Shown here one piece after another: positions 4,238-22,935 of a stretch of 25,003 nt of DNA. The notes under the pieces are model-generated. The model did no database searches, had not been told where the DNA came from, and worked only from the letters and a program-made list of their open reading frames with translations. The stretch is from a virus. Position 1 is the first letter of the stretch; the number at the start of each line of letters is the position of its first letter. The stretch covers positions 1 to 25,003 of IMG/VR virus record IMGVR_UViG_3300049596_000047, one strand, 5' to 3'. Position numbers and translations under genes: made by a program.

Positions 4238-5026
4238 TTAGAACCCGAAAATCATCGCCATAGCGATGGACTTGCCTGTTGTAATACCGCCTGAAGCGGT
4301 CTGGAATGTTGGCGCTACGCCTGTGCCATTTGATGTCAAAACTTGACCAGCCGTGCCTACAGCGGTTGTCGCTGGAGCGGCTCCTGCGCCACCACCATAA
4401 ACAATACCGTATTGCGTCAATTCGCTAGATGATGCCCATGCGCTTGCGCTTGAAAAGTAAGGGACGCCACCTGATGTACCAGCAACCGTCAAGGCTAAAG
4501 TGCCTGCGCCAGTAATAGGAGAACCAGCAACTGAAACGATGCCACCAGTAAATGACTGAGCAACGCTAGTTACTGTACCGCCTGTACCTGTAGCATTGAT
4601 TGTGATTGCACCCGAAGCGTTGGTAATGGTTACGCCTGTACCCGCAGTCAGTGTTGTACGAGTAAAACCTGTGCCGTTGCCAATGTCTAATTCACCGTTA
4701 GCTGGTGTGGTTGTAAGACCTGTTCCACCGTTAGCAACAGGCAACGCCGTACCTGACAAAGTAATCGCCAATGTACCGCTCGTGGTAATTGGAGACCCTG
4801 CAATGGATAGGAACGCTGGCACAGTAGCCGCTACGCTTGAGACTGTACCTGTAGAAGCCGCATTAGATGCCAATAACTTGACGGTGCCTGCGCTGTTTTT
4901 AAAGTACAGCTTCTCGTCTAACGTGTTTAGCGCCAACTCACCAGCGACTAAGTTACCAGAAGTAGGAACAGCAGAAGCAGTCGTGCTGTAGTACAGCGAT
5001 ATGGGTGTATAGCCTGCTTGAGACAT
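4238..5026 (-). CDS. Tail fibre protein (262 aa)
   Basis: The open frame extends to 5113, but the start is the ATG at 5024-5026. It overlaps the previous stop as TAATG and follows a strong GGAGG eleven bases upstream; the extension also overlaps the end of the 832-residue fibre gene. The N-terminal 50 residues (YYSTTASAVPTSGNLVAGELALN, then KLYFKNSAG; about residues 12-45) match a segment seen at the N-terminus of many phage fibre proteins. The middle is made of low-complexity Gly/Thr/Ser beta repeats such as SIAGSPITTSGTLAITLSG and SVAGSPITGAGTLALTVAG, typical of trimeric fibre shafts. The protein ends TTGKSIAMAMIFGF. It probably forms a thin fibre or a fibre extension attached to the virion. 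Confidence 0.8.
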   Translation of the reverse strand: MSQAGYTPISLYYSTTASAVPTSGNLVAGELALNTLDEKLYFKNSAGTVKLLASNAASTGTVSSVAATVPAFLSIAGSPITTSGTLAITLSGTALPVANGGTGLTTTPANGELDIGNGTGFTRTTLTAGTGVTITNASGAITINATGTGGTVTSVAQSFTGGIVSVAGSPITGAGTLALTVAGTSGGVPYFSSASAWASSSELTQYGIVYGGGAGAAPATTAVGTAGQVLTSNGTGVAPTFQTASGGITTGKSIAMAMIFGF

Positions 5027-7524
5027 TAGAAAGTTCCTCCTGAGATTCCGCCAATTGCGATGAATGCGCCTGCACCATCTAAACTTGCCACTTCGGTTGT
5101 AGCCCCATACCATTTAAATTTAAATGAAGCATTATTTTCTGGGATGCTAGACCACATTGTTGCGGCGTTAATACCCATAGCGTAATCAGCTACGCTACTG
5201 CTTAATGAAGGATATAACACCAGTTTAGTACCAGCGCTTCTTGTCGTAAATGCTGGCGCTCCTGTGCCGTTTGTATTGAAATCAATTCGGTTGCTAGTTG
5301 CACCGTTCAAATAAATCTGTCCAGCGCCATCTGTTGGGCTTCCAGTGCCAGTCGTAGTAACTGTCGTTGCTCTAACTGTAGATGCTGTTGTTGCGCCAAT
5401 TGTTGTGCCGTCAATCGCACCACCAGTCACTGCAACAGAGTTTGCATTTTGAGTAGACATCGTACCCAGACCAGACACCTGTGTATTAGCAATTGCAATA
5501 GCTGTGTTGCCAGCCAAAGTTAACTGACCTTGCGCATTGACCGTAAACGTACCAACTTGACTAGCAGAGCCGTAGGCTCCAGCAGTGACCGCAGTATTGG
5601 AGATGCTGAATTGGGTACCTGTCAGCGTGAGGCCAGTGCCAGCAGAGTAAATCTGAGCGGAAGAAAATTGAACAAATGTAATGTTGGTTACGCCGAAAAC
5701 AATAGTGCCAACAGTGTTGCAAATGTAAGTTTCGCCTGCACCTGTATTGCCAGCCTGCACAAAGAATGCGTCGCCTTGACCTAATGAATTAGGGCTGAAA
5801 GGTGCATATGTGTCTGCATCAGTTGCGCGAGTTAATACCCAGTTTGTCGAGCCATCACCCACCACAGTAACGGTGTACACGCCGTTTTGAGTTTGGTTGG
5901 TTTGGTTGTAAATCAACACACGCATACCAACGGTAGTCAAAACACCGTCAATGGTCAAAGCCGCTTGAGTGCCTGCATTGGTCAACGTAGCGCCTACGCC
6001 TACGCCAGCCCCGCCGGGTTGGTTATAGGTTGCATTTAAGTTTCCAGCCGTGTTTGGTGACTCAACATAAACAGGCGAGTGGAAGTGAATTCCAGATGCG
6101 GCAAGCGTATCCACATACTGCTTTGTCGCCAACTGCAATGCGGTTGTTGGGTCTTGCGTTACAGCAACAGAAGTCAAGCCACCTAGAGTTAATGCTGTAC
6201 CACCAAGCGCAACGTTGGTTGTACCAAGCGTAATTTGACTGTTGGTTAGCGCATTGTTTGGGATGTTTGTAAACGTGTTGGTCGCACCGCTCATTGACTT
6301 GCCTGTCAACGTTTGCGTGCCTGTCAATGTTGCAACAACTGCTGTATCGATTGCAATTGTTACAGCAGCAGAACCATTGTATGAAGTACCTGTTAGACCT
6401 GTACCAATAGTTAAAGCATTGGAAGCTGTTGCAGTAACCGTAACAGAACCGCCTAGACTAACAGAAGAACCATTGATCGTAATTGCGCTGTTTGTCAACG
6501 ACGCGTTAGCAATATTTGATAGCGTATTAGTTGAGCCTGAGATTGACGTACCTGCAAATGTGGTAATCGTAGAGCCTAAAGCTACAGACGTTGACCCAAT
6601 TGTAATTGTGCTATTTGTCAGACCTGCGTTAGGAATTGTTGCAAACGCAACCAGCGGATTAGTACCAGTGCCATACAAATAACCAGTTAAGGACGTTGCA
6701 CCAGTTCCACCAGACGAAACATTAAGCGTGCCGCCTAAAGTAATAGCGCCTGAAGTAGGCGTAGATGGCGTAAAACCGGTTGAACCCGCACTGAATGAAG
6801 TTAAGCCGCCTGCAACTGAAAACTGCCGCCATAAGCCTGCAGAGTACCCATCAAACGTTTGAGTATCAGTATTAAAGCGAAACTGACCATTAGCGCCTAC
6901 CGGTTGCTGTGCAGAAGATCCTTTAGGCACAGTCATACTTGACGTACCGGGAATCACAGGGTTGTCAGCAATGCTTATAGTGGGGTTGCCAGAACCATTA
7001 CCGTCTGTGACAGTAATTTGATCAGTTGTGCCAGTAATCTGGCGACCTGCTATGGTGGATCCACTAACAATTGCCAGCATGCCTGTGCCAGATGCATTTG
7101 CAATAGCCGCAGCAATGCCTGTCAGTTGAAACGTTGGATTACCTGATACGCCATTACCATCAGTAATCGAAATGCCGTTACCTGAAGCTGTTAATGTTCT
7201 AGGCGCAACGGTTGAGCTGCCTGTCTTTGCAATGATGCCATTGCCTGATGCTTCTAAACTACCAGATGCGCGGTTCAATGTTATTTGCAACGTTGACTGC
7301 GCGCCGCCATCAACTAATCCTATACCTGTGCCGCCTGATAGCGCACGGCTATTAGCCAGTTGCGGAGTCTGATTAAGCGTTAAGTATGTATACGGCTGAC
7401 TTGGCGACGCTGAAATGGCGCCTGTTGTCGTCTGAACCGTAACGCCGTTCTGCACAATAGGCACTGACTCTGTGCCTGTGATTGCACCAGCTGTTGGCAG
7501 TTGCGTAATTTGTATATTGGCCAT
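5026..7524 (-). CDS. Large tail fibre or tail spike protein (832 aa)
   Basis: The N-terminal 40 residues (IQITQLPTAGAITGTESVP, then VQNGVTVQTTT) look like a virion-attachment segment common in environmental phage fibres. Residues 41-290 are Gly/Ser/Thr-rich beta repeats, with FRFNTDTQTFDGYSAGLW at about 215-232. Three copies of a repeat with consensus LTNSxITI followed by SVxLG occur between residues 297 and 443. Residues 465-621 form a distinct module (QYVDTLAASGIHFHSPVYVE, later RVLIYNQTNQTQNGVYTV and GETYICNTVGT) that recurs in fibres of unrelated phages. The C-terminal 110 residues may be the receptor-binding or trimerising tip. It is probably the main receptor-binding fibre of the virion. 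The next fibre gene begins at its stop codon (TAATG). Confidence 0.85.
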   Translation of the reverse strand: MANIQITQLPTAGAITGTESVPIVQNGVTVQTTTGAISASPSQPYTYLTLNQTPQLANSRALSGGTGIGLVDGGAQSTLQITLNRASGSLEASGNGIIAKTGSSTVAPRTLTASGNGISITDGNGVSGNPTFQLTGIAAAIANASGTGMLAIVSGSTIAGRQITGTTDQITVTDGNGSGNPTISIADNPVIPGTSSMTVPKGSSAQQPVGANGQFRFNTDTQTFDGYSAGLWRQFSVAGGLTSFSAGSTGFTPSTPTSGAITLGGTLNVSSGGTGATSLTGYLYGTGTNPLVAFATIPNAGLTNSTITIGSTSVALGSTITTFAGTSISGSTNTLSNIANASLTNSAITINGSSVSLGGSVTVTATASNALTIGTGLTGTSYNGSAAVTIAIDTAVVATLTGTQTLTGKSMSGATNTFTNIPNNALTNSQITLGTTNVALGGTALTLGGLTSVAVTQDPTTALQLATKQYVDTLAASGIHFHSPVYVESPNTAGNLNATYNQPGGAGVGVGATLTNAGTQAALTIDGVLTTVGMRVLIYNQTNQTQNGVYTVTVVGDGSTNWVLTRATDADTYAPFSPNSLGQGDAFFVQAGNTGAGETYICNTVGTIVFGVTNITFVQFSSAQIYSAGTGLTLTGTQFSISNTAVTAGAYGSASQVGTFTVNAQGQLTLAGNTAIAIANTQVSGLGTMSTQNANSVAVTGGAIDGTTIGATTASTVRATTVTTTGTGSPTDGAGQIYLNGATSNRIDFNTNGTGAPAFTTRSAGTKLVLYPSLSSSVADYAMGINAATMWSSIPENNASFKFKWYGATTEVASLDGAGAFIAIGGISGGTF
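6196..6636 (-). repeat. Three-copy LTNSxITI protein-level repeat inside the large fibre gene
   Basis: The large fibre contains three related units of about 23 residues at residues 297-319, 338-361 and 421-443. Each reads Asn-Ala/Asn-x-Leu-Thr-Asn-Ser-x-Ile-Thr-Ile/Leu, then Ser/Asn-Val-x-Leu-Gly. The spacers between them contain a shared Ser-Gly-x-Thr-Asn-Thr motif (SGSTNTLSN and SGATNTFTN). This is a shaft-type repeat, expected to form beta-helical or triple-beta-spiral structure. Confidence 0.75.
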
Positions 7525-7525
7525 A

Positions 7526-7861
7526 TTACGGACTCAGGTTATCAAGGTTGCCATTATTCTCTGGATCATCAGTATTCTGCTCCGGCGAGATATTGTACGT
7601 ATTATACGGCCCAGTGATTAACGAGTCTTGCTCTACAGCAATATTAACATCAGGCCTTGGAAATCTAAGTGCAATCTTTTCAGGCTGCCGCGCAGGTAAA
7701 CGGTACGGGTCAAACTGATCTCTGCACCCATGATCACAGACTTTTAAGCCCGGGAAATTAGGATCGGGTCCCAGTTCAACGTACGCTCTCTTCATGTGAC
7801 AGCGGTCACAAATTGCAATACTTAATACAGCATTGCCAAGAGTATCAAGCGTACGTGGCAT
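7526..7861 (-). CDS. Small zinc-ribbon-like protein next to head-tail adaptor (111 aa)
   Basis: The product is 111 residues. Four cysteines at residues 18, 21, 42 and 46 (ICDRCHMKRAY and LKVCDHGC) form a C-x2-C, x20, C-x3-C pattern suitable for binding one zinc ion. The sequence between and after them (GPDPNFPGLKVC, then DQFDPYRLP) resembles small zinc-ribbon proteins encoded beside adaptor or tail genes in aquatic phages. The C-terminal 45 residues are acidic and Asn-rich (EQNTDDPENNGNL) and probably flexible. It starts two bases after the adaptor stop and ends one base before the fibre start. It may be a minor virion or assembly protein; the zinc site is inferred from cysteine spacing only. 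Confidence 0.75.
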   Translation of the reverse strand: MPRTLDTLGNAVLSIAICDRCHMKRAYVELGPDPNFPGLKVCDHGCRDQFDPYRLPARQPEKIALRFPRPDVNIAVEQDSLITGPYNTYNISPEQNTDDPENNGNLDNLSP

Positions 7862-7863
7862 AC

Positions 7864-8922
7864 TTACCTTGTATAGTAACTAATATTCGGAGCCCAGTAA
7901 ATAGGAGATTTGTCTCTTTCTTCCTGTTCCGCAATATTCCAATACTTTTCAGCTTGCCCTTCAAGATACTGAATACGTTCACCCGGGACTGTAGGCAGCT
8001 CCATAGCCATCTGGTGCGCAAGCATGTTCTGAACGGCAAGATACCATCGCTGAGGAATTTCTATCTCACCTGATAGATCACCTACATCTTGAATTTGCCG
8101 ATGTCTCCAGACCACGAGTTGTGGCGCGAATGATGACGGCGCGGGCCACAAGTACATTGCAGGCTGGGGAATGTTTCTGTCAAACCAATACTGCAAGGGA
8201 TAAAGGCTTGTAAAGTTCTTGTTAGGCAGGTTGGTGTAGTCATCACGATTCAAACGAGCCAGTGGAATTTCATTGGCATTTGAGCCAAATACCACCTGAT
8301 AGACACCCATGTTGGCGCCTGCTGTTTGTAAGATTCTCCAATATGGCGTGCTGGCTGAAGGCTCTAAGTCATAGTAAAGCCATGTGCCTGCAGCCCAAGT
8401 AACGGCTCCAGGGCTATAAACCGTTGTCCATGTTGACCCATTGGTAGAAGACTGAATTGAGATGGTCACTGAGCCGGATATTGCCGGTAGTATACCCACA
8501 GTCCCCATGTAGATGTCATTTCCAGACCCGTTATTGATACCAATAAAACCCGAGTTGTTGGTTAATTGACAAATATTGGTGTACTGGCCATCAAAAGCAT
8601 TGGCTGCATTGCCTGAAGAGCTATTTGCGCCGGTGTTATTAGCCGTCACTGTGCGGTAGTTGGCGTTCAGTACGTCCACCGTGCCAGTTGGCAAATAGTA
8701 AACGTACTTATCAGGATTAAGACCTACAACGGTCTTATCAATGCACCAATACTGAATTCCGCGATTGGCAAGGTTAGATAGCAAATAGTAGAGACTGTCT
8801 TTAGCCGCTGCTACTTGCTCATTGGTTAACTCTTCAGCCAGCTTGCCAGAACGACGCGCGCCATGATCAATTAGCTTTTGAACCGTAATTGTTGTCTGTC
8901 CAACTGTTCCACTAGTGCTCAT
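7864..8922 (-). CDS. Head-tail adaptor (P22 gp4 / T7 gp11-like) with inserted discoidin-like domain (352 aa)
   Basis: Residues 10-90 (TVQKLIDHGARRSGKL through LNPDKYVYYLPTGTVDVLNANYR) and residues 215-350 (IPLARLNRDDYTNLPNK, QYWFDRNIPQP, WPAPSS, IPQRWYLAVQNMLAHQMA) match the split body of the adaptor family that binds the portal and begins the short tail (P22 gp4, T7 gp11 type). Between them, at about residues 93-214, lies an extra beta domain. It carries NAANAFDGQYTNICQL, VTISIQSSTNGSTWTTVY, GTWLYYDLE and PYWRILQTAG, the order of elements in discoidin (F5/8 type C) folds. Family adaptors without such an insertion are nearer 200 residues, which explains the larger size here. It would sit at the neck of the particle. 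It lies three bases after the DUF6321 gene. Confidence 0.8.
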   Translation of the reverse strand: MSTSGTVGQTTITVQKLIDHGARRSGKLAEELTNEQVAAAKDSLYYLLSNLANRGIQYWCIDKTVVGLNPDKYVYYLPTGTVDVLNANYRTVTANNTGANSSSGNAANAFDGQYTNICQLTNNSGFIGINNGSGNDIYMGTVGILPAISGSVTISIQSSTNGSTWTTVYSPGAVTWAAGTWLYYDLEPSASTPYWRILQTAGANMGVYQVVFGSNANEIPLARLNRDDYTNLPNKNFTSLYPLQYWFDRNIPQPAMYLWPAPSSFAPQLVVWRHRQIQDVGDLSGEIEIPQRWYLAVQNMLAHQMAMELPTVPGERIQYLEGQAEKYWNIAEQEERDKSPIYWAPNISYYTR

Positions 8923-8925
8923 ACA

Positions 8926-9324
8926 TTACCACCCTGGGCAGTTCCAACGTTTAAGAGATGCGGCTTTACGCGTAAGCTCGCCTTTTTCATCACGCTTAGG
9001 CCCCGGCATTCCAGACATTCTGGCGCAGAATGAATCCTTACGGCCTTGATCGGCTTTAGTTTTTGGGTGCGGTGCAGGCGCTTTAAGATTAGAACCAGTT
9101 GCGCGATTGATTTTGTCACGGCCTTTTTGAGTTAAGCCAGCCCCACGACTTGTGGGTAGCTTCTCACCACGAGAGACTGAGAGTCTAGGGTCGCCGCCAT
9201 CTTTCATTTTTTTGTCTGCTTTCACAAACTCTTTGCCGACTTTTTGTGGCACACCACCAAAGCCGCCCTTGGTGTGAGCGGCGGCTTGCATCAAACGATG
9301 TTGGGCTGGTGATTTGCTTGGCAT
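8926..9324 (-). CDS. DUF6321-type small basic protein (132 aa)
   Basis: The open frame can start at a TTG at 9328-9330, but the ATG at 9322-9324 is chosen. It gives the family-like start MPSKSPAQHRLMQAAAH, and the gene is coupled to the stop of the previous gene at 9327. The C-terminal half contains LTQKGRDKINRATGSNLKAP, then KDSFCARMSGM and TRKAASLKRWNC. This is the hallmark sequence of the domain of unknown function I know as DUF6321, seen in many cyanophages and other aquatic phages. The protein is strongly basic with many Gly and Lys. Its biochemical role is not known to me. Its place between virion genes suggests a virion or assembly protein, possibly binding nucleic acid. Confidence 0.8.
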   Translation of the reverse strand: MPSKSPAQHRLMQAAAHTKGGFGGVPQKVGKEFVKADKKMKDGGDPRLSVSRGEKLPTSRGAGLTQKGRDKINRATGSNLKAPAPHPKTKADQGRKDSFCARMSGMPGPKRDEKGELTRKAASLKRWNCPGW

Positions 9325-9326
9325 GA

Positions 9327-9731
9327 TCAACCGTAAAATTTAACCATCTCTAGGACGACGGTGTAGAAGTCACCATTAGTAGCATCAGCAGTGCTAAACA
9401 ATACATCACCAGTTACGCCAGTGCCTGCGTTGTTAGTCAAACCGCCGAACTTATCAAAATCCATTGTGTATTGAGAATTTTGTGGCACACACCAACAAAA
9501 TACATCTGTGGTTGCATCCCAATAAATCTGTACTTCCAAGCCATGCGTTGCAGCATGGATCTTTGTAATCGTTACTCTGGTACAAGTTTTGCCAGAAGCA
9601 CTTGGTGTTAGCGCAGAAACATCTACCTTCAAAACTTTGCTTTCACCAGTACCGTCAGAAAGGTTGGTGAATTTCATAATTGCCATTCGCTCACCATCAA
9701 AGAGCGTTTGACTTGCGACTGCATCAGCCAT
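9327..9731 (-). CDS. Small beta-rich virion structural protein (134 aa)
   Basis: The frame opens at a TTG at 9741-9743, but the ATG at 9729-9731 is the likely start because the upstream TTG lies in a GGAG ribosome-binding sequence (TTGGAG, then ATG). The 134-residue product is beta-rich and starts MADAVASQTLFDGERMAIMKF. Further strands include KVDVSALTPSASG, RVTITKIHAATHGLEVQIYWD and the C-terminal VVLEMVKFYG. It resembles small structural proteins found next to coat genes in aquatic phages. It has three Cys (KTCTRV, FCWCVP). A virion location is likely from its neighbours, but I cannot name a specific function. Confidence 0.7.
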   Translation of the reverse strand: MADAVASQTLFDGERMAIMKFTNLSDGTGESKVLKVDVSALTPSASGKTCTRVTITKIHAATHGLEVQIYWDATTDVFCWCVPQNSQYTMDFDKFGGLTNNAGTGVTGDVLFSTADATNGDFYTVVLEMVKFYG

Positions 9732-10230: not shown

Positions 10231-10920
10231 TTAACGCTCCTTCGCAGCAAAGATGTAATCAACTGTCATAGTCTTTGCGACTGCTTCACCATTCTGAATA
10301 GCAAAACTAATAGTTAAGTCTTCATCATCAGGCAAATTAGTCACAGCAGACGTGCCAGCTACAACACCGTTTACACAATATTGCATTACTGCACCACCAT
10401 CGTAGTTGAAGCCCAAGGTAATGAACGTGTCATTAGCCATGGTTGCAACTGAAGTAGTTGTAGCAGTGCCGTTCTTTTCAACCAAGAAGCTCACCGAAGT
10501 TGAGCCATCAGCCTTTGTGAAGAACACGCCATCACTGACGTCCAGTGGTGAAGTATCAGTAATTTGCAAACCAATTGAAAAGTCAGATTGGGTAGCATCA
10601 CTAATCTTGAAGCGAGCTTCAAAGTATAACTGTTTACCAGAAGAGAAGCGAAATGACTCGCCTTTTTTCTGGAGTGCAACCAAATCGTTATCAGCCGCAG
10701 TGTTGGTAATCAACAGTAAACCACCGTCGCCATCTGTCAGAGCTTGTGTAGCGCCTGCATCTGTCTCAGTTACTGTCCAGTCACCAGCCACGTAGTAGTC
10801 AAAATCTTCCATGTAAGAATGGAATTTAGTTGGCGAGGGCATGCCCAAGTCAGCCAAAGAGTTTGACTCTCCCACATTGGTCAAACCAAATGGGAAGCGC
10901 GTGTTATAAATATTAGCCAT
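10231..10920 (-). CDS. Lectin-like beta-sandwich protein downstream of coat (229 aa)
   Basis: The product is 229 residues with an N-terminal segment (MANIYNTRFPFGLTNV) that looks like a virion attachment region. The rest is predicted all-beta. The order YVAGDWTVTETDAG, GGLLLITNTAADND, GKQLYFEARFKISD, FSIGLQITDTSP, VSFLVEKNGT, TFITLGFNYDGGAVMQYCVNG and LTISFAIQNG is that of concanavalin-A-like or LamG-like jelly-roll domains, in which alternating strands frame a sugar-binding face. It follows the major capsid gene with its own AAGGAG ribosome-binding site. A capsid-decorating or host-surface-binding protein is the most economical reading. Which ligand it binds, if any, cannot be told from sequence. 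Confidence 0.7.
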   Translation of the reverse strand: MANIYNTRFPFGLTNVGESNSLADLGMPSPTKFHSYMEDFDYYVAGDWTVTETDAGATQALTDGDGGLLLITNTAADNDLVALQKKGESFRFSSGKQLYFEARFKISDATQSDFSIGLQITDTSPLDVSDGVFFTKADGSTSVSFLVEKNGTATTTSVATMANDTFITLGFNYDGGAVMQYCVNGVVAGTSAVTNLPDDEDLTISFAIQNGEAVAKTMTVDYIFAAKER

Positions 10921-10965: not shown

Positions 10966-11880
10966 TTAGACGCCGGGTGTACCGTACATTGAGCGCCAGT
11001 CAGTCCAACCAATGTCATAACGCTCGGTGGCTTTATAACGCATTGAGTCGGTCTCAAAGTCGCCTTCCATGGTCTTTTCCAAGCCACGGCGCATCATCAA
11101 CTTCATGCCTTCAGGGGCATCAGTCTGAACCCACCAAGCTGTGGCAGATGTCAAACGAGAGATAACTGAAGCACCTTCAGGCATCAAACCAATAGACTTA
11201 ATTGGGTTGATGTCGTTGTTGGCTGTACCAGCACGAAGAACGCTCTTCAACAGAACTTCAGCTTGGAAGACATTACCAGGAGCAACCACCAACTTCAGGG
11301 GCTGCAAGCGGATCTTCTTGCCGTTGTTGTCCACTGCTTGACGAACTTGGATCAGCATCTGCTCCAAGGAAGTCTGGCTCAAGTTAGCAGCTGTGTTCAG
11401 CAAATTGCTTGCTGTACCGCTAACCAGTGGGTGTGTAGAAGCATTCAACTGAACGCCGTCGCCGCCAGCATACGCTGAGTTGAACGCTTGGTTCAACACG
11501 TTGGCTGCCAATGTCTCTTTGGTTTCCACCAAAGATTGGGCCAAATGCTTAGCGTAAACTTGACCAATACGGATGTGGTCGCCGTCTTCAACCAATACCT
11601 TGGTCAATGCAAAGGCCAAGCCATACACATTGTAGAGGTAACGCTTGAGGAACAGCACGCCACCTTGTTGGTAAGCAACAGGGCTGCCGTCAGGCAACTG
11701 AGGTGCTGCACCAAAGCCGTACAAGACAGGCTCTTCGTGGTAGTTACGTGGGATACCTTGTTGTTCACGGAAGACCGTGGACCATTCGTCCGAACGTTGA
11801 TCGTAGACACCGTCGAAGCATTCATTTAGAATGGGTTCGACGATACTACGAAAGTCGGTACTGCGCATTGGAGCTGCCAT
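10966..11880 (-). CDS. Major capsid protein (304 aa)
   Basis: The product is 304 residues and lies in the usual place after scaffold and decoration genes. It starts MAAPMRSTDFRSIVEPILNE. The central part includes ETKETLAANVLNQAFNSAY, STHPLVSGTASNLLN, SLEQMLIQVRQAVDNNGKK and LKLVVAPGNVFQAEVLLKS. This is the pattern of coat proteins related to Mu gpT-type major head subunits: a substrate-loop-like region, STHPL, and a P-domain helix followed by LxVxPxxxxxAxxLLxS. It ends with an ERYDIGWTDWRSMYG segment. It would form the HK97-fold shell. The ribosome-binding site is very strong (AAAGGAGGGAG, about seven bases before ATG), in line with high expression. Confidence 0.88.
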   Translation of the reverse strand: MAAPMRSTDFRSIVEPILNECFDGVYDQRSDEWSTVFREQQGIPRNYHEEPVLYGFGAAPQLPDGSPVAYQQGGVLFLKRYLYNVYGLAFALTKVLVEDGDHIRIGQVYAKHLAQSLVETKETLAANVLNQAFNSAYAGGDGVQLNASTHPLVSGTASNLLNTAANLSQTSLEQMLIQVRQAVDNNGKKIRLQPLKLVVAPGNVFQAEVLLKSVLRAGTANNDINPIKSIGLMPEGASVISRLTSATAWWVQTDAPEGMKLMMRRGLEKTMEGDFETDSMRYKATERYDIGWTDWRSMYGTPGV

Positions 11881-14046: not shown

Positions 14047-14066
14047 AAAGCTTAAATAAAAGCTTT
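14047..14066 (-). other. AT-rich hairpin at the GroES-scaffold junction
   Basis: The transcribed strand holds AAAGCTT, TTATTT, AAGCTTT, a perfect seven-pair stem-loop that overlaps the last codons and stop of the GroES-like gene and ends about 13 bases before the scaffold ATG. It could influence translation of the scaffold by masking the region near its ribosome-binding site, or may simply be AT-rich coincidence. Low confidence. Confidence 0.25.
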
Positions 14067-14474
14067 AATGTCACGAGGATCGCCAGTGACTTTGCCAATG
14101 AGTTCATGATCATTGAAGAAGGTGAAAAGGCATTTGCCCTCTGCGCCTTGCTCGTCTTTGAAATCAATCTCCCATCGATCACCGCCCCACTTTGGTACGC
14201 GAACAAAGTCGCCTACCTGTGCCCATGCGCCTTCAGGCCAAGACTCCATGGACTCGCGTTTCTTAAAAGCAAGAGGCCCGATAGCAATGACTTTCCCAAC
14301 TTGGGTATTCCATTTCTCGGTCTCTTTAGTTTCTTGTGGAATAAAAATTCCAGCAGATGAGACTTTTTCTTTAACTGCTCGTAACTGCACAAGAATTCTC
14401 GCGCCATACGGTGCCATCAAAGGGTCTATGGTAGGGAACGCTTCTGCAAGCGTCTGTTCAATGTCATTCGACAT
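14052..14474 (-). CDS. GroES-like co-chaperonin (140 aa)
   Basis: Residues 20-135 follow the GroES fold. APYGARILVQLRAVKEKVSSAG is the first strand pair. GIFIPQET (42-49) is the mobile loop with a hydrophobic I-F-I triplet at the position that docks on GroEL, VGKVIAIGPLA follows, then VGDFVRVPKWGGDRWEID and a final FFNDHELIGKV strand. A roughly 15-residue insertion (KKRESMESWPEGAWAQ) sits where bacterial GroES has a short turn. Known phage co-chaperonins (T4 gp31 is the model) work with host GroEL to fold the coat protein. The position here, between portal and scaffold or coat genes, fits that job. Its start overlaps the previous gene by 11 bases with a GAGGAAA ribosome-binding sequence. Confidence 0.88.
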   Translation of the reverse strand: MSNDIEQTLAEAFPTIDPLMAPYGARILVQLRAVKEKVSSAGIFIPQETKETEKWNTQVGKVIAIGPLAFKKRESMESWPEGAWAQVGDFVRVPKWGGDRWEIDFKDEQGAEGKCLFTFFNDHELIGKVTGDPRDIKAFI

Positions 14475-17475: not shown

Positions 17476-20400
17476 TTATTTTCTCCGCATCATAAGTGCA
17501 TACCGCATTTGGTCTGTAGTCGGATTTTGTTGGACTATACCACCATTTGCCTTCTTGATGAAGGCTTTATCCTGAGTTTGTGTACGAGATGCGCGTTCAG
17601 CTTCTTCTTGTACGAGATCTTCCAGCTCGGCCTGAGACTTGGCGCGTTGCCCCAACCTTGCTCCAATCGTGTTATTGTGGGTATCCATATCATAGTCAGC
17701 AGGCATTTTACCCGTAAACATAGATTTGACAGATTGGAGCGGTGAAGTAACGTACTCGTGTGCTTTGCCTAGAAACTCAGCAGTCTTAGGTCCGTACTTA
17801 CGTGAAAGCGTGCCTGCTGCCAACATATGCCTTGCAGCGTCCCGTTGGTCATTTTGACCTTTTTGTCCAGGGTACATCTCATAGGCCACAGTCTCCGAGT
17901 AAGTCGGGACACTGAACAAGTACGGCGTTTTGACTTCAGGTTTTTTGACTGATCCACCGGCTTGGTAACCACGAACTGGCCCGCCATCAGCGTTGCCTTC
18001 AGGTAAAGCGTCTATGTCATCAGCTCGACTTTCAAGTTCGTCGGCAACTAAGCGAAGAGTGTTGCTTTGCAAATCAGTTGTTCTAAGCGTAAAGTCGCCT
18101 AACGAGTCGCCGACGCCCATAACTTCTTCAAGAAACTCTCTAGCATTGCGCGAATCACGCAAAATGTTAGCAATTCGTCGATAGTCGGCAGAAGTCGTAA
18201 TAGGGTCATCCACGCTAAAATCAATCAGCATATTAGTAATTTGCGGCACACGAGCAATAATTGCTTGCTGTCGTGGCGTTACCGCAGGCGGTACGCCATT
18301 TGGATTCAGTGCTCTAAGTTGCGCGTCAGCCTGCATACCTTGCAGAATATGGTTTAGGTTCAATGCTGTACGCTGCGCAGCACGATCACGCTCCATGGGA
18401 GGCAATCCACGCAGTATCTCGTGATCAAACGTGCCATCATTCAATGCTTGAACAGTGTCACGCAGGTCAGCTATATCCGCACCCGCCTCGTTTGAAAGAC
18501 GTATTGCAAAGTCTGCAGGGCTAAACTCAATGTAGTTTGCGCGTTCACGAAGTGCTTGCGCATAATCGCGACGCTCAGTGTCCGTTAAAGAGATCCAAGG
18601 GCTATTTGCAGTTTGATCTACTGGGTTGCTTAAACCATTTGCCAAGAAACGCAAGTCATCAGGATTTAATTCTGGATCATTCAATGAATTTTCAAGTTGA
18701 ATCATAGCGTCATTGCGCTGATTATCAAGATCTGCGCCACGAAGTCTAAAATCTACAAGCCGTACATCAATTTCATTAATCACATTTTGAATTGCTGATG
18801 CCGCAGCTATGCCGGCAAACCCTTCTCGCTGAAGATACGGAATTTGAGCTGCAAGATCATCTCTATAGCCTTGCAAATAATTTCCAAACCTGTTAAGACT
18901 ACCGGGCGTATCGCCTATTTCGTTTAAATTGTTTTCGGTATAAAGTCTTCCTACGCTTGTTGCAAAAAGCTGAGTGATAGCTTCGTTATGCTCATCTGAC
19001 AGCAATCTAGCCTGATTCCCTATTTCCCTGTTAATTTGCATTAGTGCAACACTTGCCTGATCTTGAGTAGCAGGTCGATATTCTGCAGGCTGTTGCTGTT
19101 GTGGTGGCGCAATAGATTCTTCAATCTGCGTTGCAAGATCACGTAATGCGTCTAATACAGCTATATGCTCAAGTGCAGGGTCAGCTGCGCGCCTCAAAGC
19201 AAGTGCATAGCCTGCAGGATCTATCCGAGGTCTGTTGTTTTCGGCAACGCGTTGCGCAATAGTATCAAAGCGATCAGCAATAACAGGCGTAAAATTTGTA
19301 GCTACGACATCAGCAATTCTATCTACCGCACGAACCCAATCAAACGGTTGCGCAGGCGCATTAGCTGCAGGCCCTACTTCAGGCTCCCAATCGCGTATGT
19401 ACGCGGTATACATATCGTCAGCCAACTCATTTAGCGCAGTCTCAACAGACCCTCGTACAGCAACTTCAGCAGCACTTCGCAATGCTGTAATAAATGCGTC
19501 AGTATCGCGCACAGGATCAAGACCACTGCCTTCAGTAATCACGCGGAAAACTGAGCGCAGTTCATCGCCTGCATCAACACCCATTTGTCGATCAAGTTGC
19601 AATGCTGCGTCATGCGTCATTCGTAAATAATCAGGCACTTGCTCAGGTAGTAAACGATTAGCATCTCTCCAACGAGCAAACTCTTCAACCATGACTTGGT
19701 GAATACCTAAGCCTGCCGGAGAGTCGTCGACATCAGCTTCCCAACGTTGCGAAAAGTCTTGCAACCAGTTTACTTGCTCAGGCGATAAACGATCACGGTA
19801 TTGCGCAAGCAACTCTTCAGTATCCATGTTAGGTATTGGGTCACCTTGCACTGCAACAGCACGTGTGCGCGGTTGTTGCGCAGCTTCTGCAGCTTGACGC
19901 TCGCGTACATAAGTTGCTTGCAATCCTACAGTTTGCAGTAACTCAGTAATGCCATCAGCAACAATGTTAGCAGCAATGCTATGACTGTTAGCATACTCAG
20001 ATTCAAGATCATACAAGCGTTGATTCAAACGGTCCAACGCTCTAACAGGGCCTTCTGCTTGCAATTCGCGGGCAAAAGTTTGTTGAATGTCATTAAAGAA
20101 TGTTTCAGCAAGAGATATGCGGTTTTCTTCGCCAGCTTCAGTAAACGCAACACGCTGTGAGTCCAGAACATTGTCAATTGCCGATGATACAGCACCCGAC
20201 GTATACGCGCCTATACTTTCGCTAGGTCGCTGGCTCATAACTGCAGGTACTGAAGCTTGTGGCTCATTGGCTTTTAAGTTCTCAATATGATTGCGAATAT
20301 CAGCACGTGTAACAAACCTTGGCAAACCTGCAAGGTCGTAGCGCTCAAACTGCGATATAGGCATATCAATCATACCAGCCAAGGCGCGATTTTGCATACG

Positions 20401-22935
20401 CTTTCTATCATTAATGCCTGTGTGGTCATACAGGAAAGTGCCAACGTCGTGGATCGAGTCCGCACGGCTGTTAAGATACGACTTAATGCCTTCAACATAT
20501 TCAGGTTTGATCTTGCCATTTTTACGGCCTGACGCAAAGTGAATGTTGTACTTACCATCCAATGATGAAGGGTTAAGGTCAAAGATTGCAACAGGCTCAC
20601 CTGTTACTGTATCTCTAAAGCTTACCATTTGCGAGCCATTTGCAACAGCGTTAATGAAGCCCATCCTAGGGCTGGTTGCATCAGGGTTGCGCTGTCCTGT
20701 GACAATGTCGTAAATTGGAATGTACTGACGATCACCGGTGCCGGGATGCCAAGGGTTTGGCCTGTCTCTAACATTACCGCCTTCACCAATACAGACGTCC
20801 AACGCTAAGGTGTCTTCACTTACCAATTGTCCGACCTGCTCAGGCGTAAAGCGATTGGTGATCTCCAACGCGCCAACATTACCAAAGACTTTGTCATTAG
20901 GAATATGCGTATCTGCTGACAACTTAAACTGCGCGTCAGCATCCATCTTAAACTGCTTTTCTTTAGCTTGCGCAAGCTTTTCAGCAGCAATCCTACCTTC
21001 CGCAGTATCGCGTATGTACTTCTCAACAGTCATCTTAGGCACTTTGTCCAAATGTATTTTACGCGACATCACGTCGCTGTAAAAGCTTTTTGCAAGATCT
21101 TCAAAGCCAAGATTGCGCAACTGAACTGGGTTTGCAATGTATGCGCGCTCAGTATCAGGCGTTTGCATCAACGCAGGATAGAACTGCCGCTCACTATACT
21201 CAATTTCTTCTTTTAAGTTTTTGGCAAAAGGCGCATGAATTGCCTTGTCAGTTGCGTTCTCATACGCAGCACCTAAACGCAAATTGTCAACCACTTTTTG
21301 CTGTTTCTTGTACGCGGTGTTTGCTTTGTCAGACTCGCGTGATGCTTGAGCAAAAGGCTCATACCTTCCAAGGTTCATACCTTCAACAACAACGCCCGTG
21401 TTAGGGTCAATTGCCCCGTAGCCTAATTGCTTGGCAATTGCTTCTTGTTCGCGTTTACGAGTTGCTGCATCGCCTGATTGTTGTACCAAGTCAGCTAATT
21501 TCTGATCTGCTGCAACCAATGCCTCATCAGTTGGCGTTTTGGCAGGCATGCCTGCGGCGGTGCGTTTGGCGCCAATCTTGGAGCCTGACATATCTGCACT
21601 GTCAAATATTTCTGATGGCGGGTAAAACGTTAAGCCTTGACTTGCCAGCTTGGCTGCGGGCTCATTAGGCGTACCAACCTTTTCAACAATGTAATTGGTA
21701 AACTGAGAGTTAAGCCAGTTGGCCGCAGCTTCATGCATTGCAGGCAATTCTTCTGCAGAAGGCAAGTCAAGCGCCGCTCTGTACTGTATGCCATTGGGCG
21801 TTTGCAAGAACTGATCGTACATTTCTAGTGTGTGCGCTGCTGAAGCTTCTCTATCACCGAATCTGGCTTTATACGCCGACAACGCCGCGCCTTCTGATGG
21901 GGCGTCAGGGTACATCTCATTAGCTTTTTGCTTAAGGAAAGACTCAAACGCTCTGCGCGCAGACGCAGCTTCAGGCTTACGCAGGATGTTGTTTTGTATC
22001 TCATCCAACGCTTGCACGGGAGTCATTGTTGTGCTGTCAATAACGTTGTTAATGATCTCTTGCGCAGGGGCGTAAGTCGCGGCGTCTGCCTTTGCAGTTG
22101 CAGGCAACGTAGCAGATGTAACCCTTGACCCTTCAGGTCGCATGGCGTACAACTTAGGATTCATTGGCTGCATGGAAGCAGGGAGCCCAGGAATAGGCGG
22201 CAACCCTTGCATTTCCCTTTGCGCCATGATGTCACCAACACTTTCAGCCACGCCTTGGAGCTTAGCGCCATACGTTGGCTGACCTGTGATTGGGTCTACC
22301 CTTTGCATGCCAGATTGCGCGTTCACAAAGTCTGTAGGTATATCCTTGATTTGCCTGCCTACTCTTGTGGCCTCAGCGCCCATAACGCGGACGTCATTAG
22401 GGGTAATTGGCGGTCTAATTGGCTGGTTCAAGGCCATAGGCCAAACGGCAGGAATCTTGGACGCGTCCATCGCCTTGGTCACATCTGTCTCAAACTCTTT
22501 GCCTAGCTGCGTTATTGGTGCTTGGTAGAACCGTCCTGTAGTAACAGGCACATAGTTCTTTTGCATCTTCATAATGCCTTGCGGATCGCCAAGTATGTCG
22601 TACATCGCCTCTGCGCCGGCGGTCTGTATGTTTTGCGCCACGTCAGCCCATGCGCCTGCAACAGGGATTGCTGGGTTAAGAGCGCGAACAGACTCCTGCA
22701 TTGACTTGGCCATCATCAGCGGATTGAACTTGGTTGCCAACTCGGTGAAGTTACCTGCTGCTGCGCCTAAGGGGTCAGGCTTTGTTTGCGCAGGTGGGAC
22801 TGGTTTGCCATACCCTGGGATCTGCGAAGCTGCAGACGGCGGCGTAGGCGTAGGCTTATTCTGCTTGGCCAAAGCCAATCGCATCTTGTCTAAGTCACCG
22901 CTACCCCCGTCTTCACCAAATGGTACTTCATACAT
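17476..22935 (-). CDS. Giant putative internal (ejected) virion protein (1819 aa)
   Basis: The N-terminal 60 residues are Pro- and Gly-rich. Most of the protein is helical and charged, with no membrane span. At residues 608-830 there is a composite region: KIHLDKVPKMTVEKYIRD, then LALDVCIGEGG (710-720) and SFRDTVTGEPVAIFDL (772-787), then FASGRKNGKIKPEYVEGI. It is reminiscent of PcfJ-like regions in other large phage proteins. Residues 1651-1663 are GGPVRGYQAGGSV. Residues 1671-1760 form a compact domain with RDAARHM (1698-1704), KAHEYV (1724-1729) and DYDMDTHNNTIGAR (1747-1760). These conserved D, R, H, E, N positions resemble DUF6973-like domains and suggest an enzyme. The size, lack of tail-tube neighbours and place between terminase and portal fit an ejected internal protein rather than a tape measure. 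The function is inferred. Confidence 0.75.
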   Translation of the reverse strand: MYEVPFGEDGGSGDLDKMRLALAKQNKPTPTPPSAASQIPGYGKPVPPAQTKPDPLGAAAGNFTELATKFNPLMMAKSMQESVRALNPAIPVAGAWADVAQNIQTAGAEAMYDILGDPQGIMKMQKNYVPVTTGRFYQAPITQLGKEFETDVTKAMDASKIPAVWPMALNQPIRPPITPNDVRVMGAEATRVGRQIKDIPTDFVNAQSGMQRVDPITGQPTYGAKLQGVAESVGDIMAQREMQGLPPIPGLPASMQPMNPKLYAMRPEGSRVTSATLPATAKADAATYAPAQEIINNVIDSTTMTPVQALDEIQNNILRKPEAASARRAFESFLKQKANEMYPDAPSEGAALSAYKARFGDREASAAHTLEMYDQFLQTPNGIQYRAALDLPSAEELPAMHEAAANWLNSQFTNYIVEKVGTPNEPAAKLASQGLTFYPPSEIFDSADMSGSKIGAKRTAAGMPAKTPTDEALVAADQKLADLVQQSGDAATRKREQEAIAKQLGYGAIDPNTGVVVEGMNLGRYEPFAQASRESDKANTAYKKQQKVVDNLRLGAAYENATDKAIHAPFAKNLKEEIEYSERQFYPALMQTPDTERAYIANPVQLRNLGFEDLAKSFYSDVMSRKIHLDKVPKMTVEKYIRDTAEGRIAAEKLAQAKEKQFKMDADAQFKLSADTHIPNDKVFGNVGALEITNRFTPEQVGQLVSEDTLALDVCIGEGGNVRDRPNPWHPGTGDRQYIPIYDIVTGQRNPDATSPRMGFINAVANGSQMVSFRDTVTGEPVAIFDLNPSSLDGKYNIHFASGRKNGKIKPEYVEGIKSYLNSRADSIHDVGTFLYDHTGINDRKRMQNRALAGMIDMPISQFERYDLAGLPRFVTRADIRNHIENLKANEPQASVPAVMSQRPSESIGAYTSGAVSSAIDNVLDSQRVAFTEAGEENRISLAETFFNDIQQTFARELQAEGPVRALDRLNQRLYDLESEYANSHSIAANIVADGITELLQTVGLQATYVRERQAAEAAQQPRTRAVAVQGDPIPNMDTEELLAQYRDRLSPEQVNWLQDFSQRWEADVDDSPAGLGIHQVMVEEFARWRDANRLLPEQVPDYLRMTHDAALQLDRQMGVDAGDELRSVFRVITEGSGLDPVRDTDAFITALRSAAEVAVRGSVETALNELADDMYTAYIRDWEPEVGPAANAPAQPFDWVRAVDRIADVVATNFTPVIADRFDTIAQRVAENNRPRIDPAGYALALRRAADPALEHIAVLDALRDLATQIEESIAPPQQQQPAEYRPATQDQASVALMQINREIGNQARLLSDEHNEAITQLFATSVGRLYTENNLNEIGDTPGSLNRFGNYLQGYRDDLAAQIPYLQREGFAGIAAASAIQNVINEIDVRLVDFRLRGADLDNQRNDAMIQLENSLNDPELNPDDLRFLANGLSNPVDQTANSPWISLTDTERRDYAQALRERANYIEFSPADFAIRLSNEAGADIADLRDTVQALNDGTFDHEILRGLPPMERDRAAQRTALNLNHILQGMQADAQLRALNPNGVPPAVTPRQQAIIARVPQITNMLIDFSVDDPITTSADYRRIANILRDSRNAREFLEEVMGVGDSLGDFTLRTTDLQSNTLRLVADELESRADDIDALPEGNADGGPVRGYQAGGSVKKPEVKTPYLFSVPTYSETVAYEMYPGQKGQNDQRDAARHMLAAGTLSRKYGPKTAEFLGKAHEYVTSPLQSVKSMFTGKMPADYDMDTHNNTIGARLGQRAKSQAELEDLVQEEAERASRTQTQDKAFIKKANGGIVQQNPTTDQMRYALMMRRK
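17656..17925 (-). other. DUF6973-like C-terminal domain within the giant protein
   Basis: About residues 1671-1760 of the 1819-residue protein. The conserved pattern is Asp-x2-Arg-His in one helix, His-Glu in the next, and Asp-x-His-Asn-Asn followed by Gly-x-Arg in a loop. Similar spacing is found in a domain present in secreted and wall-associated bacterial proteins. Acidic and histidine residues in these positions suggest a metal-dependent or hydrolytic site, perhaps acting on the cell envelope during DNA entry. Confidence 0.55.
17947..17985 (-). repeat. GGPVRGYQAGGSV element in the giant protein
   Basis: Residues 1651-1663 contain two Gly-Gly units separated by V-R-G-Y-Q-A, matching the layout of the GGVIxKYxTGG elements at 9809-9868 and 14832-14858. 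It lies directly before the C-terminal enzyme-like domain, where a flexible linker would be expected. Confidence 0.6.

Follow-up and report, generated by a model that had tools for sequence, protein, structure and literature searches.

A discoidin-fold domain in the dock hairpin of a head-tail adaptor from a freshwater phage

Introduction

A beta fiber-dock domain is part of the adaptors of T7 (gp11), KP32 and SU10 (gp11); in T7 and SU10 this dock region lies between helices 2 and 3 and is the outward-facing site to which the fibres bind (PMC6702177, PMC9509320). The adaptors of P22 (gp4) and Sf6 consist of the portal-binding helix bundle and have no dock domain (PMC9509320). In the Schitoviridae, the adaptor of Pseudomonas phage DEV (gp83) has a 101-aa "lectin-binding domain" that points outward and is inserted between H2 and H3 (PMC10925440). 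Discoidin domains are known in other phage proteins (PMC7824862, PMC8451122), and no report of one in a phage adaptor was found in the literature searched, which took in few subscription papers.

Here we describe the head-tail adaptor encoded in a 25,003-nucleotide stretch of viral DNA (IMG/VR record IMGVR_UViG_3300049596_000047, positions 1 to 25,003; hereafter the window), whose source is a freshwater phage. The window adaptor shares its helix bundle and beta dock with SU10 gp11, T7 gp11 and KP32, and its flanks match the corresponding Pfam family (PF24175); with P22 gp4 and Sf6 it has the portal-binding helix bundle in common, but those proteins lack a dock. The docks of SU10 and T7 are small beta domains, none of which has been described with a discoidin domain inside, unlike that of the window adaptor. 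DEV gp83 and the window adaptor both have an insert between helices 2 and 3, a likeness of position; at 244 aa the DEV adaptor is short enough that its insert may replace the dock, whereas the discoidin domain of the window adaptor is nested within the dock region. An outward domain on a neck adaptor is thus already known from DEV gp83, and what is new here is a well-supported discoidin fold in an adaptor dock. The statement in a first-pass annotation of this DNA that known adaptors are compact and lack such an insert was too strong, given the docks of T7, KP32 and SU10, the domain of DEV gp83 and the insert of Pelagibacter phage HTVC027P described below.

Results

An adaptor of the SU10/T7 gp11 type and its gene neighbourhood

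The adaptor gene (7864..8922, minus strand) encodes a protein of 352 aa and was assigned from its open reading frame together with Pfam, PHROG, annotation and Foldseek evidence. The gene order of the 25-kb window runs from the end of the large terminase through portal (PHROG 1216), GroES-like, major capsid and adaptor to fibre-like genes, and that of MW202545 is similar to the portal/capsid/adaptor/tail region of the window. The MW202545.1 homologue of the adaptor, 55% identical, carries the annotation "tail adaptor".

Profile searches bore out the earlier proposal of a gp4/gp11-type adaptor. When the two flanks were joined without the insert, the closest Pfam family, SU10_adaptor (PF24175), was matched at E 1.5e-5 and 26.0 bits, marginally under the cut-off of 27.0, whereas the intact 352-aa protein matched it at E 0.55. 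Among 83 adaptor homologues, 65 matched SU10_adaptor at E up to 0.1 (best 5e-15) and all 83 matched PHROG 12985, a family without assigned function. Searching with the model of the whole adaptor, Foldseek returned chains 9k09_d of cyanophage A4 (TMt 0.60) and 8jov_2 of the GP4 portal-tail structure (TMt 0.55); additionally, the BFVD model of a 350-aa uncultured phage protein matches the whole architecture of adaptor plus insert (TM 0.86, 23% identity).

The AlphaFold2 model comprises four helices (14-24, 34-54, 291-308 and 314-335) with intervening strands: a bundle whose second and third helices are separated by a beta dock. Residues 1-60 (8743..8922, minus strand) form the N-terminal tail and helices 1-2 of the bundle in this model. 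Residues 61-92 (8647..8742, minus strand), delimited by AlphaFold2 and by alignment with insert-less relatives, are the first part of the beta dock, up to the outgoing hairpin strand (81-94). The second dock part, residues 215-290 (8053..8280, minus strand), was recognised by its conservation and carries NRDDYTNLPNKN, QYWFDR and LWPAP; it is among the most conserved parts of the adaptor, with dN/dS values of 0.050 and 0.025 in clades A and B, respectively, of the insert-bearing homologues described below. Residues 291-352 and the stop codon (7864..8052, minus strand) complete the protein with helices 3-4 and a C-terminal arm in the AlphaFold2 model.

Several neighbouring genes were also characterized. 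Between the portal and capsid genes lies a GroES-like co-chaperonin gene (window 14052-14474; PF00166, E 1.6e-7), which is likewise present in Pelagibacter phage HTVC027P and in MW202545. A 229-aa protein (window 10231-10920) has a weak match to Laminin_G_3, a concanavalin-like family (E 2.4e-4), and a protein of 1819 aa (window 17476-22935) is almost without family match, with one weak PHROG. Just upstream of the adaptor, at window 8926-9330, a 134-aa protein matches DUF6321 at E 3.7e-20; at one related locus (L330) a DUF6321-like sequence and the adaptor occur in one open frame, which may be an assembly or sequence error.

A discoidin/CBM32 domain hangs from the dock hairpin

The first-pass annotation held that the adaptor body is split at residues 93-214 by a domain of discoidin type. 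These residues correspond exactly to 8281..8646 (minus strand), and the motifs on which that claim was built, NAANAFDG, VTISIQSSTNGSTWTTVY, GTWLYYDLE and PYWRILQT, are all present. The domain was assigned to the discoidin / F5-8 type C / CBM32 fold from Pfam PF00754, AlphaFold2, Foldseek and the insert-less relatives. By sequence, F5_F8_type_C (PF00754) matched the insert alone at E 2.5e-4 and 21.6 bits, under the curated cut-off of 28.2; of 44 homologous inserts, 27 reached E 0.1 or better against this family, the best at 2.7e-7, and 14 matched F5_F8_type_C_2. A single-sequence phmmer search of the PDB yielded nothing useful.

In the AlphaFold2 model of the whole protein, most of the insert has a pLDDT of about 90-94, placing it among the best-predicted parts, and the insert modelled alone has a mean pLDDT of 91.3. 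Discoidin/CBM32 structures dominated the structural search with this isolated model, upholding the fold proposed earlier: nearly all top Foldseek matches in the PDB were CBM32 or factor VIII C2 domains, with best TM scores of about 0.7-0.8 (up to 0.81 by query length) and E-values of about 1e-6 to CBM32 and 1e-5 to FVIII C2 structures. Because of the AlphaFold2 confidence and the Foldseek matches, the fold assignment is firm even with modest sequence scores. The insert shares its fold, and weakly its sequence, with the CBM32 domain of AlyB (5zu6), a chitosan-binding module (4zxe), CBM32-6 of CpGH89 (4a42) and the C2 domain of FVIII, but differs from them in sitting inside a phage neck protein.

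The strands that flank the insert in the AlphaFold2 model span residues 81-94 and 206-220, and the domain therefore hangs from a beta-hairpin in the region between helices 2 and 3. In the alignment, the insert-less relatives have their gap after the strand that ends near residue 92 and before the NRDDY segment. Within the domain, residues 101-125 (8548..8622, minus strand), which include the AFDG motif, form the putative far-side (ligand-side) loop region, as judged from strand topology, and are largely deleted in the Caulobacter phage clade (clade C, below); this placement of the ligand-side loops follows from the AlphaFold2 strand order and general knowledge of the discoidin fold.

The presence of the segment in every close homologue could be taken to mean that residues 93-214 simply belong to the normal adaptor fold instead of forming a domain of their own. 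We consider this extremely improbable, and indeed refuted, since insert-less homologues align across the site, the SU10_adaptor match of the flanks goes from E 0.55 to 1.5e-5 once the segment is removed, and the segment folds alone at high confidence and matches free-standing CBM32 modules. We are nearly certain that the window encodes an SU10/T7 gp11-type adaptor with a discoidin/CBM32-fold domain in its dock hairpin, between helices 2 and 3, to which the domain is joined via its adjacent termini.

Other phages show what else occurs at this site. The homologous adaptors of Roseobacter phages CRP-901 (gp54) and CRP-902 (gp54) are 226 aa long, about 31% identical to the window adaptor, and have no hairpin insert. 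In HTVC027P gp64 (L088:5458-6396), roughly this hairpin carries a different beta insert, which is similar to PHROG families of tail fibre and virion structural proteins; the hairpin site therefore tolerates inserts. For adaptors of the short-tail type, the window protein means that the dock hairpin accepts whole carbohydrate-binding-type domains.

Distribution, inheritance and selection of the insert

Relatives of the window protein occur in 392 viral-contig stretches, and a scan of genome contigs placed one relative (L330) on a betaproteobacterial MAG contig. Two further insert-bearing clades were recognised, one around MW202545 and one around the Caulobacter phages RW, RLK, KcrB and GB2A (clade C). 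The insert-bearing homologues number in the hundreds, and the insert was present in all of the approximately 238 full-length adaptors read from the three clades; the sequences of clades A-C are the best 80 matches per clade to insert-bearing queries, so that this count does not independently exclude insert-less members inside them. Insert-less homologous adaptors were identified by alignment in CRP-901, CRP-902, MW202785, MW202675 and Alcaligenes phage QDWS535.

In a tree of the adaptor core, which is unrooted and has some very long insert-less branches, all 47 insert-bearing rows fell on one side of a branch with support of 99/94. This topology is consistent with one gain of the insert and, on that reading, a single such insertion would have been retained in a large set of environmental phages. 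Within clades A and B, nucleotide distances of insert and core were correlated across all distinct sequences (r 0.80-0.93). A Mantel test on 85% cluster representatives within the same clades gave r of about 0, which, given the correlation across all sequences, we attribute to too narrow a range rather than to domain swapping. Judged from these distances, the insert is inherited together with the adaptor and not swapped.

The insert diverges faster than its host protein: between the window-like adaptor and MW202545, identity is 63% in the core and 39% in the insert. Values of dN/dS were 0.099 (clade A) and 0.075 (clade B) for the insert, 0.055 and 0.046 for the core, and 0.117 and 0.089 for the putative ligand-side loops. 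The insert is thus under purifying selection, with dN/dS of about 0.1, and dN/dS gave no sign of diversifying selection in the insert or in these loops in clades A and B. AFD and nearby residues are conserved in clades A and B, and clade A also conserves loop residues around TNICQ. The AFD region is the one deleted in clade C, where about 26 residues are gone after the AFDG position, including most of one ligand-side loop, and the later strands are kept.

Discussion

Possible roles of the neck domain

By analogy with T7 and SU10, the window adaptor would form a 12-subunit ring under the portal with its dock region facing outward; in such a ring, twelve discoidin domains would therefore stud the neck with their loop side away from the ring. 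The reading that we favour, at roughly even confidence, is that these domains would serve as a fixed structural or docking module, either bracing the neck or holding a partner in the virion (the base of the tail fibre or a further collar protein). The retention of the domain and the purifying selection on it support such a role, and the loss of a loop in clade C with the strands kept suggests a role for which that loop is dispensable. We consider such a fixed module more likely than a variable site for binding a host receptor. What counts against docking is that discoidin/CBM32 domains are generally best known as binders of glycans or lipids.

Two genes downstream of the adaptor encode candidate partners for such a module. 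The adjoining gene (7526..7861, minus strand), identified at other loci by phmmer and alignment, encodes a 111-aa protein with CDRC and C...C motifs that matches no Pfam or PHROG family and resembles the N-terminus of CRP-901 gp53 only weakly at profile level (hhalign probability 32%). By phmmer it was present at 79 of 80, 80 of 81 and 78 of 81 insert loci in the three clades (237/242) and at none of 82 loci in the insert-less clade, a co-occurrence that may be shared descent alone. The second gene downstream (5026..7524, minus strand) encodes an 832-aa tail-fibre-like protein (PHROG 30390, 6002 and 2647), whose homologue in MW202545 is annotated tail fiber. Its N-terminus is not kept alongside the insert, with 0 of 81 matches in clade C, and at one clade A locus (L055) the insert is kept with a different gene in the fibre's place; a one-to-one fibre-docking role is doubtful because of these two observations. 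As an obligate partner, the neighbouring fibre N-terminus is weakened by its absence from clade C.

Two other roles would explain the same domain differently. The insert could be a genuine glycan-binding module of low affinity, whose twelve copies would provide avidity for host polysaccharide, particles or mucus and keep the phage near cells before the fibres engage. Discoidin-domain proteins of other phages have been proposed as host-surface binders (PMC8451122, PMC7824862). Most of the fold matches are to CBM32 modules that bind sugars (alginate lyase, chitosan-binding, galactose-binding); the ligand-side loops would be exposed in the deduced geometry, in which both termini lie at the base; and the conservation of the TNICQ-area loop residues within clade A would fit a binding surface. 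The window's insert, however, contains neither His nor Lys, the loops lack diversifying selection, and clade C lacks the greater part of one ligand-side loop. His/Arg residues are used by many CBM32 sites of the galactose type. We therefore regard glycan binding as a tentative possibility, and its extension, in which a 12-copy discoidin lectin ring at the neck would be a second, avidity-driven glycan site apart from the tail fibres in several environmental lineages, Caulobacter phages included, as doubtful. Were the domain to bind glycans, the neck would provide these phages with a site of adhesion in addition to the fibres.

Alternatively, the insert may be a decorating or passenger beta-sandwich on a tolerant hairpin, comparable to Ig-like domains of other phage structural proteins, and do little of a specific nature apart from adding stability or touching the capsid rim. 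The different insert of HTVC027P at about the same hairpin fits this idea, as do the widely varying lengths of the adaptor matches in BFVD, which suggest a tolerant site, and the faster evolution of the insert relative to the core. Its occurrence in about 238 full-length adaptors of three clades (in a sampling that favoured insert-bearing sequences) and the purifying selection on it speak against a passenger, which we consider unlikely. For the docking or structural module as for the other roles, the function of the domain is testable in the cultured Caulobacter phages RW, RLK, KcrB and GB2A.

Gene assignments in Caulobacter phages

The comparison also bears on the annotation of phage RW. RW_GP076c (L083:9001-9987), annotated as hypothetical, is assigned here as a head-tail adaptor with a shortened discoidin insert. 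The major capsid protein had not been identified in the paper on the Riverwalk phage (PMC11053796). RW_GP086c (MK929790.1, L083:2137-3051) and the window's capsid protein (10966-11880, Pfam Phage_capsid_4) share 75% identity over 304 aa, which makes RW_GP086c very likely the major capsid protein.
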